Part shown: positions 20,574 through 24,652 of the stretch, one piece after another
Position numbering within the stretch: position 1 is the first letter of the stretch
Layout of the letters: each line of letters begins with the position of its first letter
Source of the DNA: Parcubacteria group bacterium
GTDB taxonomy: Bacteria; Patescibacteriota; Minisyncoccia; Phycocordibacterales; CALRBT01
DNA length: 55,777 bases
Reading direction: 5' to 3'
Assembly (NCBI GenBank): GCA_943354475.1
Contig: CALRBT010000005.1
Location: 1 to 55,777, forward strand
Position numbers and translations under genes: made by a program
Notes under the pieces: generated by a model
Seen by the model: only the letters and a program-made list of their open reading frames with translations
What the model was told of the DNA's origin: nothing
Database searches by the model: none

Positions 20574-21167
20574 TTACAGATGACTCTCACGTAATGACTG
20601 ATTGATTTCAAAAAGCGCCTTCTCGTGACAAGTATTCATTTCATCAATAAGTATCCGATTAAAATGAGTAGCCTGTACGAATCGATCTAGCTCATTATTT
20701 GGCGCAAAGTAACCTAGATGATACAGAATCTTCATAATCATAATGTATTCAAAATTTCGCAATTCATCTTTTGAAAACATCTCTAGACTTAAAAAATCCA
20801 AACTACTTTCAAGGAGTGCGTACAGTTCAATCTGAGGTTCTTCTCCGTGAAGTAAACGTCGGAGTAGCGTAAAAAAGCGAACGATGAGCAGCCGCTCCTC
20901 TCGCCTTGTCTCAAAATTCTTCCAGACACTATCTGGATTACCTGCATTAATTAAGCGCCAGATTTCCTTGCCTCGGACCAATGAGACATCACTCTGACAA
21001 TAGTCCTGCAGAGAAAATCTCAGTTTTGATTTCAGATGTCTCGCTCCGGTCGCTTGGGCACTAAGAAGGCCGAACTCTTTGGTAAAGATGGTGAGAAAAC
21101 GATTTGCTTCGCCGGAGTTGGTTCCTGAGAGGATAAATGCCTTGGTATGGTAAATATGCCTGGACAT
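20574..21167 (-). CDS. recO: DNA repair protein RecO
   Basis: 197 aa, shorter than the usual ~240. The N-terminal OB-fold (HIYHTKAFILSGTNSGEANRFLTIFTKEFGLLSAQATGARHLKSKLRF) is clear and a helical domain follows. The four-cysteine zinc motif of some RecO proteins is missing. RecO loads RecA on SSB-coated DNA with RecR. Its ATG overlaps the ileS stop as TAATG, so translation is probably coupled. Confidence 0.88.
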   Translation of the reverse strand: MSRHIYHTKAFILSGTNSGEANRFLTIFTKEFGLLSAQATGARHLKSKLRFSLQDYCQSDVSLVRGKEIWRLINAGNPDSVWKNFETRREERLLIVRFFTLLRRLLHGEEPQIELYALLESSLDFLSLEMFSKDELRNFEYIMIMKILYHLGYFAPNNELDRFVQATHFNRILIDEMNTCHEKALFEINQSLRESHL

Positions 21168-24100
21168 TACATCAATGTAACTTTGAACACGAAATCTCCA
21201 ACAAGAATTTCCCCACCGTCATTATCCCCATACTCAACAGCACTTGCTAATACCGTCCTTTTAATCTGTTCTTCAAATTTTTTCAACAATAATTGTCCCT
21301 CTTCTGTAGTGACAATTAACAACTTAACTTTATCATTTGGATTTAATCCTTTCTGCTTTCGCAATTCCTGAATTCCTCGAGTGAATTCACGGACATCTCC
21401 TTCCTCTTTAAGCTCTGGGGTAATTGTTACATCTAAGAAAACTGTGCGGTCTAATCCCTCACCACCAAAGGAAATATGTTTAACATTTAACTCATCTTTT
21501 ATTAACTCTAGCAATGCTTCATTTCCTTTTAGCGCTTGATTGTAGATCGTTAATTCCCCGAGTGGCTGCCTGACAACAATCTTTGCTCGCGATCTCGCCT
21601 CAAGTCCCAGTGTTACTAACTCTCTGACTTGCTTCATTTCATCAACAATATCAATCTTAAGATTTAATTTTGACTCTGGCCAACTAGCTAAGTGCACACT
21701 CTCGACCTCATCTTCAGTCTTAAGCTCAAGATAAAGATACTCAGCAAAGAATGGCATAGACGGTGCCATCAATTTTGCATACTCCTTGAGCACAAATTGT
21801 AGCGTACTCAAGGCTTTCTGTTTGTCCGCCAAATCATCGCCCTTGAGTCGATCCCTTGATCTGCGCAAATACCACACCGAAAGATCATCAACGAAAGCCA
21901 TCAGTGGTCTTGTCGCCCTATCTAGTTCATAAACCTCCATACCAGAGGTGACTTCGAGAATGAGTTGGTTGAGTCTTACTAATATCCAACGATCAAGGAC
22001 ATTATCTGATGTGTCTGAGGCGTCAACTGAAGCATCTTTGTAGAGCTTGTAAAACGAGAGAACGTTATCGAGCTTGCCAATAACCTTGTTAGCGGCTTCG
22101 GCAACCCCCTTCTCAAAGAAGTTAAGGTCTTCTGATTTCATCAATTGAGACGAGAGAAGATAATACCTCATCGCGTCAACTCCATATTTATCAAAAAGAA
22201 GTTGTGGATCAGGAAAATTATTTTTAGACTTAGACATTTTCTGACCATCTTCAGCAAGAATTGTTCCTGTAGTTACCACATTCTTAAACGACACCTTATC
22301 GAAAAGTAGTACAGAGAGGGTGTGTAGGTAATAGAACCACGTGCGTGTTTGTGCTATATACTCCGCGATAAAGTCAGCTGGGAAGTTATCATGGAACCAT
22401 TCCTTCCTCTCGAACGGATAATGATTGGCGGCAAATGGCATTGCACCCGACTCAAACCAACAATCAAAGACTTCTGGAGTTCTCGTCATGTCGCCTCCAC
22501 AGTCACAGCTAAGTGATACCTCATCGATATAAGGTCGGTGAAGATCTAGCTCATAATTTCCATTGTGTGGACGCACAGTAAATGACAGCAGTTGAATTTC
22601 ACCATTCTTGATAAAGTCACCATCTTTGCCCCACAACTCTATTGCCTTTTGAGCATCAAGTGCAGCTGCAACAGCCTGTATAAGCCAGCCAACGTATTCG
22701 TGTCCAACAATTAAAATATTTTTGTTTTTGTACTTTGTGTCTATTTCATAAAGAAATTCTCCGAGTCGCTTTTTCATTTGGAGAAGATTCTCTCCTCCTT
22801 CTGGTACTTTTGTAAATCGCTCCTCGTAATCTTTGAAGAAATTATGGTACTCGTCAACTGACTTTCCATCAAACTCACCGGTATTGATTTCACTCAAACG
22901 ACTATCGGTAACGACAGAGTCAGTCTCCAGACCTAATTCTCTTGCAACAATTTCTGCCGTCTCTTGGGTGCGCAAAAACGGAGAGACAAAAACCATATCA
23001 ATCTTTTTCTCTTTGAGAAGAGCGCTTGATTCGAGCACTTGTTCCTTCCCTTTTTCTGTAAGATGAGCGACTCCGGGAGTTTTTGAATCAACGACTTTTT
23101 TTACATTACTTTCAGCTTCGCCATGTCGCATTACAAAATATTGATTACCAGTCTTCCTAGTCAGGTCTCCGAGTTCATCAACAGAGGCGACGAATATTTG
23201 TTTGTGACAGGATGCACACCTCCAAATTGGTAATGGGGATGCCCAATAACGATTTCTTGAAATATTCCAGTCAGGTGCTCCTTGAACAATATTTTTAAAA
23301 CGCCCCTCCTTTAGATGTCCTGGTACCCAGTTTATCTTTTCATTAAGTCCTACTATGTTTTCCTTCTTCTTATTTACAGCCACAAACCATGCTGGAATTG
23401 CATAGTAATAAAGCGGTGTCTCACACCTAAAACAGTGTGGATATGAGTGAATGATCTTTTCTTTTGCAAAAAGATATCCTCGATGCGCAAGACTTTTTAT
23501 TATCTCAATATCAGTTCTCTGATGATCATCCTTGGGTTTAATCAGTAATCCTTTAAAATCAACAACTTCGTCTTTGAAACGTCCATCGTCCCCGACATGC
23601 CAAACAATGGGAATGTTTTTTTCCTTTGCAAGTTCCATATCTTCTTCCCCGTATGCTGGAGCTAGGTGCACAATTCCTGTCCCACTATCATCTGCAACAT
23701 ACGGAGCACTGTACACCTTCCAGGCATTTTCTTTATTTGGAAAGTTCTTGTCTAGAAAATAATCAAAAACTGGCTTGTACGATTTTCCTACGATCTCTTT
23801 ACCCTTGAATGTACTGACAATATTTGCGCCGTCAGGAAACACTTTATCAAGTAGTTTCTTACCAACAATGTACATTCCACCATCAGCTGAGACTTTCACA
23901 TATTCAATTTCTTCACCAACAGCGGCCGCCATATTTCCTGGAAGTGTCCACGGAGTAGTCGTCCACGCCAAGAGATAGGTTCCTGGTTCATCAACCAATT
24001 CAAATTTAACGGTTACTGAAATATCTGTAATATCCTTATAACTATTATCCATAGCAATTTCAGAATTTGCTATAGGTGTTTCGCAACGAGGGCAGTATGG

Positions 24101-24652
24101 CAATACTCTTGTTCCTTCATAGACTAGTCCTTTTTTGTTTAGCTCGCCAAGAGCATACCAAACTGACTCTATATACGAGTTATCCATTGTTTTGTATGAG
24201 CCATCAAAATCAACCCATCTACCCATTCTGTCAACGGTTTTTTTCCAATCGTGAACAAAGGTTAACACCTTACTTCGAGCGTAATCATTAAACTTTCCAA
24301 TGCCATAAGCTTCAATTTCTTTTTTCCCAGAAATTTTTAAATCTTTCTCAACAATATTTTCTATAGGTAGCCCGTGGCAATCCCATCCCCAACGACGTTC
24401 GACATATTTACCTCGCATTGTTTGATAACGTGGAACGGCATCTTTAATAGTACTGGCCAGAATGTGTCCATAGTGAGGCAACCCTGTAGCGAATGGTGGA
24501 CCATCATAAAAAACGTAAGAATTCTGAGGATCATTTTTCTTAAGCGACTTTTCAAAAATCTTGTTATCATCCCAAAATTTCAAAATCTCCTCCTCCCGCA
24601 GAGCGCCAGCGCTTTTCTCCACTTTTTCTGTTTGGTCTTTATTTTGAGCCAT
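21167..24652 (-). CDS. ileS: Isoleucyl-tRNA synthetase with inserted histidine-phosphatase domain
   Basis: 1161 aa. The IleRS body is complete: HYGH (HIGH motif) near residue 60, editing domain with LLAWTTTPWTLPGN, the type-2 marker NISRNRYWASPLPIW, KMSKS near residue 807 (GQKMSKSKNN) and an anticodon-binding C-terminus. Residues ~502-702 hold an extra domain that opens YFVMRHGEAESN and continues to VSPFLRTQETAEIVAREL, GEFDGKS and LIVGHEYVGWLIQ. These are the RHG, R, E and GH motifs of the phosphoglycerate-mutase/histidine-phosphatase family. The IleRS fold resumes at LHRPYIDEV...CGGDMTRTPEVFDCWFESG. AGGA lies 6 nt before the ATG. recO is coupled downstream. Confidence 0.95.
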   Translation of the reverse strand: MAQNKDQTEKVEKSAGALREEEILKFWDDNKIFEKSLKKNDPQNSYVFYDGPPFATGLPHYGHILASTIKDAVPRYQTMRGKYVERRWGWDCHGLPIENIVEKDLKISGKKEIEAYGIGKFNDYARSKVLTFVHDWKKTVDRMGRWVDFDGSYKTMDNSYIESVWYALGELNKKGLVYEGTRVLPYCPRCETPIANSEIAMDNSYKDITDISVTVKFELVDEPGTYLLAWTTTPWTLPGNMAAAVGEEIEYVKVSADGGMYIVGKKLLDKVFPDGANIVSTFKGKEIVGKSYKPVFDYFLDKNFPNKENAWKVYSAPYVADDSGTGIVHLAPAYGEEDMELAKEKNIPIVWHVGDDGRFKDEVVDFKGLLIKPKDDHQRTDIEIIKSLAHRGYLFAKEKIIHSYPHCFRCETPLYYYAIPAWFVAVNKKKENIVGLNEKINWVPGHLKEGRFKNIVQGAPDWNISRNRYWASPLPIWRCASCHKQIFVASVDELGDLTRKTGNQYFVMRHGEAESNVKKVVDSKTPGVAHLTEKGKEQVLESSALLKEKKIDMVFVSPFLRTQETAEIVARELGLETDSVVTDSRLSEINTGEFDGKSVDEYHNFFKDYEERFTKVPEGGENLLQMKKRLGEFLYEIDTKYKNKNILIVGHEYVGWLIQAVAAALDAQKAIELWGKDGDFIKNGEIQLLSFTVRPHNGNYELDLHRPYIDEVSLSCDCGGDMTRTPEVFDCWFESGAMPFAANHYPFERKEWFHDNFPADFIAEYIAQTRTWFYYLHTLSVLLFDKVSFKNVVTTGTILAEDGQKMSKSKNNFPDPQLLFDKYGVDAMRYYLLSSQLMKSEDLNFFEKGVAEAANKVIGKLDNVLSFYKLYKDASVDASDTSDNVLDRWILVRLNQLILEVTSGMEVYELDRATRPLMAFVDDLSVWYLRRSRDRLKGDDLADKQKALSTLQFVLKEYAKLMAPSMPFFAEYLYLELKTEDEVESVHLASWPESKLNLKIDIVDEMKQVRELVTLGLEARSRAKIVVRQPLGELTIYNQALKGNEALLELIKDELNVKHISFGGEGLDRTVFLDVTITPELKEEGDVREFTRGIQELRKQKGLNPNDKVKLLIVTTEEGQLLLKKFEEQIKRTVLASAVEYGDNDGGEILVGDFVFKVTLM

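Follow-up and report, generated by a model that had tools for sequence, protein, structure and literature searches.

An isoleucyl-tRNA synthetase (IleRS) that contains a complete and apparently catalytic histidine phosphatase (HP) domain is encoded by ileS of a Parcubacteria group bacterium (order Phycocordibacterales, class Minisyncoccia), on the 55,777-nucleotide contig CALRBT010000005.1 of assembly GCA_943354475.1 (positions 1 to 55,777; hereafter the window). The reading favored here, at a probability of roughly 0.55, is that a working IleRS carries in its zinc-ribbon loop a competent phosphatase whose substrate would either be produced in the aminoacylation/editing cycle or do harm to it. 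The HP-IleRS combination appears to be undescribed: searches of open-access papers gave no account of an HP domain within a synthetase.

The ileS frame opens with ATG, runs for 1161 residues uninterrupted by stops (Table 1) and matches the NCBIfam ileS model TIGR00392 at 855.7 bits against a cut-off of 621.4. The editing site of the CP1 domain is recognizable from TTTPWT at residue 231 and GEED at about residues 331-335. With HIGH, KMSKS and TTTPWT all intact, the protein is predicted to be a complete, working IleRS; it is also the single ileS product of a genome that is 98% complete, as searched with the IleRS N-terminal part. Modeled in full with AlphaFold2, the protein has a mean predicted local distance difference test score (pLDDT) of 89.5 and a predicted template-modeling score of 0.83, with most of the insert region at 90-97. 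Because both parts are folded confidently and the insert recurs in 54 of 60 genomes of the order, HP-IleRS is not an assembly artefact.

The insert fills the loop that runs from the CxxC half of the zinc ribbon (479-482) to its CxC half (716-718); relatives without the insert have a loop of about 10 residues there (e.g. GSVAELEKLTNQKVKDLHRPFIDEF). The original prediction, made from the letters of the window alone, had put the domain between SVDELGDL and DLHRPYIDEV, which comparison with these relatives bears out, and near the junction of the editing and catalytic parts; the position along the sequence was exact, but the zinc-ribbon loop follows CP1 and belongs to neither the editing nor the catalytic fold. 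The intact phosphatase motifs that it reported are present (RHG at 509-511, R561, E588 and H651), within a Pfam His_Phos_1 match (PF00300) spanning residues 506-668 (E 5.7e-29; 101.6 bits against a cut-off of 21.7). Modeled alone, the insert adopts an HP fold (pLDDT 96.3), and its top matches in the Protein Data Bank are all HPs, including PspA (4ij6), PhoE (1h2e), CobC (6e4b), Rv2419c (4pz9) and a riboflavin-pathway HFP (9mmh), at template-modeling scores of ~0.73-0.77 and 19-24% identity. By fold and motifs the insert is assigned to branch 1 of the HP superfamily as a CobC/PhoE/PspA-like domain with a predicted intact active site. Recent acquisition as foreign DNA is rejected, as GC content and codon usage are the same in the insert and the remainder of ileS. 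The genome of the window encodes one other HP only (G000:C2:26904-27482; L001, L150), which, with a hydrophobic stretch at its N terminus, is probably anchored in the membrane.

The spread of the domain was surveyed in a sample of Patescibacteria genomes comprising 60 of the order (Parcubacteria; one per family, the window's own included), 11 from the rest of the class and 121 others with a detected IleRS. An HP lies inside the IleRS frame in 54/60, 7/11 and about 13/121 of these, respectively (the contig-edge and split cases G001, G011 and G016 of the order were checked). In four members of the order (G021, G028, G053 and G054) IleRS is 972-980 residues long, with a clean gap at the insert position, and no IleRS was found in two further genomes among the 60 (G037 and G058). 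A scan of GTDB contigs yielded 246 confirmed stretches; the best 80 of these were kept, all of which are IleRS frames with a likewise intact active site, under record names of Nomura-, Campbell-, Taylor-, Kaiser-, Adler-, Wolfe-, Vogel-, Lloyd- and Zambryskibacteria, Parcubacteria, Paceibacterota and, once, Berkelbacteria. Other phyla may also include carriers, since only those best 80 were kept. One of the 80, a 3-kb contig filed under a Spirochaetales metagenome-assembled genome (L230), carries a Parcubacteria-type HP-IleRS and is probably misbinned.

The active site is conserved to a degree that the rest of the domain is not. The five catalytic residues R-H-R-E-H (509/510/561/588/651) are complete in 88 of 89 IleRS inserts, with E replaced by D in the last, and all five are present in 6/6 inserts of valyl-tRNA synthetase (ValRS); these positions rank among the least variable alignment columns, whereas the inserts are 32-50% identical to that of the window. 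The original prediction had proposed such a survey of relatives and of their His and Arg, and had taken degenerate inserts lacking the catalytic His in most relatives as the mark of a purely structural role; instead, the Arg and His are invariant. As detection with an HP model might miss degenerate inserts, IleRS frames were therefore also collected by their N-terminal part alone, and each frame longer than 1100 residues found in this way is either an intact HP carrier or otherwise accounted for. The long IleRS of G080 owes its extra length to low-complexity additions, and that of G062 has additional sequence away from the zinc-ribbon site and no HP. G088 and G106 (L104, L105) have an unrelated insert of ~130 residues, of unrecognized kind, at the same zinc-ribbon site, and their match to the HP profile comes mostly from the shared IleRS flank. 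That the loop accepts such other inserts speaks for a structural or neutral spacer, left over without catalytic use. This explanation is nonetheless scarcely credible, because the catalytic residues are near-invariant while the domain otherwise diverges; the samples contain intact domains or clean absences, and no degenerate or decaying insert was seen among them. A purely structural role is very unlikely on this pattern of conservation, and the insert can almost certainly be read as a catalytic module.

Table 1. Positions of the synthetase and phosphatase features of ileS in the window (aa, residue of the 1161-aa protein)
Feature	Positions	Strand	Basis
ileS, 1161-aa IleRS containing the histidine phosphatase insert	21167..24652	minus	ORF, Pfam, NCBIfam
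HIGH signature HYGH, aa 60-63	24464..24475	minus	motif search
CP1 editing-site motif TTTPWT, aa 231-236, intact	23945..23962	minus	motif search
Zinc ribbon first half, C479-x2-C482, just upstream of insert	23207..23218	minus	motif + alignment
Histidine phosphatase insert plus linkers, aa ~499-701	22550..23158	minus	PF00300, model, PDB matches
RHG motif (509-511), R509 and nucleophile H510	23120..23128	minus	R and H the same in all 89 IleRS inserts
R561, phosphate-pocket arginine	22970..22972	minus	invariant
E588, expected proton donor	22889..22891	minus	88/89 IleRS inserts, one D
H651, second catalytic histidine	22700..22702	minus	invariant
Zinc ribbon second half, C716-x-C718, just downstream of insert	22499..22507	minus	motif + alignment
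KMSKS, aa 805-809, intact	22226..22240	minus	motif search

The phosphatase and its host appear to have distinct histories. In a tree of the IleRS body, built without the insert, members of the order split into deep, separate clades; in the HP tree, 17 of 18 inserts of the order form one clade (96, starred), as do those of family f115 (93; 99, starred, in the wider tree). Approximately unbiased (AU) tests reject keeping the order together on the body tree (p-AU 3.9e-6), family f115 as one group on the same tree (p-AU 1.7e-4) and the body's main clade on the HP tree (p-AU 7.6e-8), values that are indicative only, because some groups were picked after the trees had been viewed and the trees are 'quick' searches. 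The simplest reading of these sequences is that IleRS bodies would have been replaced through gene transfer and recombination, with the insert retained at the same site and following the lineage of the organisms; the same tree pattern would also be expected if the insert had moved laterally within lineages. The patchy identity along the window's ileS, of which the N part is nearest L083 and the insert-less G146 and the C-terminal 120 residues nearer the order, agrees with replacement of the body.

Comparison across synthetases indicates that HP domains have been recruited to IleRS and ValRS several times. In family f132 (L063-L072), IleRS frames of 1441-1551 residues hold two tandem HPs in the zinc-ribbon loop, and first and second copies branch separately in the HP tree. 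The 1572-residue IleRS of G289 (L077 2667-7382) has three HPs at three sites, with catalytic residues intact except for E to D in the second. In G104, IleRS (L111 1638-5990) combines an N-acetyltransferase (GNAT) domain and an HP at two sites, the HP after the KMSKS region, and ValRS (L080 2375-6208) has two HPs. The ValRS inserts of G034, G011, G271 and G277 are located in the corresponding region, and in the HP tree, whose deep branches are weak, ValRS HPs stand in two or more positions that are separate from the site-1 IleRS inserts. The ValRS of G277 (L075 1327-5157) carries three payloads: besides an HP, it has a serine hydrolase (PF06821) and, in the editing-domain region, a HAD hydrolase. 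As the GNAT, HAD and serine-hydrolase payloads are also small-molecule enzymes, their company supports reading the HP as one.

Gene order and phylogeny show that the HP domain can stand alone as well, as a gene of its own between argS and ileS. In the class member G319 (L254, L157), argS, HP, ileS and recO follow one another in overlapping frames, with recO next after ileS as in the window; the ileS has no insert, and the adjoining free HP of 209 residues is 51% identical to the insert of L118 and nests among the inserts of the class (97, starred). An HP of the insert type is likewise encoded apart from ileS in the genome of G226, where D replaces the proton-donor E. A regulatory module, in which the HP would remove phosphate from the synthetase, a tRNA or a partner, or would tune IleRS by sensing a phosphometabolite, could be imagined because the active site is conserved and the domain lies, along the chain, close to the editing and catalytic regions. 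Such a role is improbable, as a position that varies over three sites, two synthetases and a free gene is ill-suited to fixed allosteric wiring, and no dedicated kinase was identified. Because a free HP stands beside ileS and insertion occurred at three places, the trait that has been kept is more readily seen as an enzyme activity than as allosteric wiring tied to one site.

On the favored reading of an aminoacylation-linked phosphatase, the HP, by extension from established HP chemistry, would form a phospho-His510 intermediate while hydrolyzing a phosphomonoester, E588 serving as the acid, and would be tethered to, or made together with, the synthetase because its substrate arises from or harms the aminoacylation/editing cycle. 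The best guess for the substrate is a small phosphomonoester linked to that cycle; examples, offered as guesses, are AMP arising from turnover during editing and stray compounds of the aminoacyl-nucleotide type. An adenylate by-product and an alarmone-like signal, the substrates put forward in the original prediction, and the sensing role that it suggested are likewise candidates only. More tentatively, synthetase-tethered HPs of Patescibacteria might provide an extra quality-control or detoxification step, destroying a phosphorylated by-product or adenylate-like poison made at, or aimed at, the branched-chain enzymes IleRS and ValRS. Their GNAT, HAD and serine-hydrolase company recalls, by analogy, enzymes that neutralize aminoacyl-nucleotides.

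Several observations weigh against this linkage to aminoacylation. The substrate is proposed from association alone, and the HP family is promiscuous. The insert reaches no HP subfamily of known substrate at its cut-off, scoring 79.8 against 225 bits for 2,3-bisphosphoglycerate-dependent phosphoglycerate mutase (NF038349), 70.5 against 162.9 for alpha-ribazole phosphatase CobC (TIGR03162), 58.3 against 350 for phosphoserine phosphatase PspA (NF045917) and 42.1 against 74.5 for phosphohistidine phosphatase SixA (TIGR00249). The close relatives G028, G054 and G255 are without any HP gene, so that the HP function is dispensable. Finally, as the genome of the window encodes an ordinary inorganic pyrophosphatase (PF00719, the only type checked, in this genome only), removal of pyrophosphate answers no evident need, and the insert is rejected as a stand-in for a missing pyrophosphatase.

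A rival reading is a general metabolic or housekeeping phosphatase, active but unrelated to aminoacylation, that is merely parked in IleRS: as an essential enzyme with high expression and a loop that tolerates insertions, IleRS would secure expression of the phosphatase in a reduced genome. This account is possible, if somewhat doubtful. HPs at several unrelated sites in two synthetases are in keeping with it, as are the GNAT, HAD and serine-hydrolase domains and the ~130-residue insert of G088/G106, which are payloads of unrelated kinds at this site or elsewhere, and the many members of the order in which the insert is the sole HP of the genome; so is the methionyl-tRNA synthetase (MetRS) of Mycoplasma penetrans, whose appended aminotransferase works independently (PMC7694997). 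Chance parking, however, would not be expected to choose IleRS and ValRS repeatedly, and the free HP adjoining ileS in G319 also suggests a link. Nor is glycolytic phosphoglycerate mutase likely as the common role of a parked enzyme: at least 11 insert-bearing genomes are without both enolase and the metal-dependent mutases (PF01676), whereas in others both coexist with the insert.

Known systems resemble HP-IleRS in part. The nearest precedent found is the MetRS of M. penetrans, likewise the synthetase of a reduced-genome bacterium with a second active enzyme, whose domains are functionally independent (PMC7694997). Its aminotransferase is N-terminal, belongs to one species and makes methionine, whereas the phosphatase of HP-IleRS, whose activity is predicted, is internal, order-wide and repeatedly recruited. 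The IleRS with N-acetyltransferase (NF040702) also joins IleRS to an extra small-molecule enzyme domain, though its domain is a GNAT and that of the window an HP; the window protein falls well short of the cut-off (274 against 1999 bits) and shows no GNAT in a Pfam scan, while in the relative L111 both domains occur together. The bifunctional RNase H/acid phosphatase (NF005567; insert at 72.8 bits against a cut-off of 326) similarly joins an HP to an RNA-acting enzyme, but as a fusion to RNase H rather than an insertion in a synthetase. Stand-alone HPs (PspA, PhoE, CobC, Rv2419c and 9mmh) share fold and catalytic residues with the insert, which differs in being embedded in IleRS, and at 19-24% identity their substrates are not transferable to it. 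Resistance enzymes acting on aminoacyl-nucleotides include the GNAT MccE, the peptidase MccF and the HIT hydrolase MccH (PMC7157772). Their types (GNAT, serine hydrolase, nucleotide hydrolase) resemble the payloads seen here, and they shield a synthetase from adenylate mimics, an analogy only, as they act against inhibitors of aspartyl-tRNA synthetase, are separate genes or domains and include no HP.

Synthetases with extra domains are known; what appears to be new is an intact phosphatase in an essential synthetase across a bacterial order, recurrent in IleRS/ValRS and outlasting replacement of the synthetase itself. HP-IleRS points to a selected and previously unsought activity beside tRNA charging, marks the zinc-ribbon loop as a natural landing site for enzyme payloads and offers a concrete enzyme to study in a large lineage of tiny, uncultured bacteria with almost no biochemistry.

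HPs were also encountered joined to other proteins. In L143 and L144 (G228, G264), frames of 437-451 residues encode a multi-pass membrane protein that ends C-terminally in an HP, and in L145 and L146 (G177, G124) an HP stands behind a D-isomer-specific 2-hydroxyacid dehydrogenase-like domain, named by eye (frames of 550-552 residues). In the window, the recO gene directly downstream of ileS (20574-21167) is short, at 197 residues, with its N-terminal domain alone recognized.

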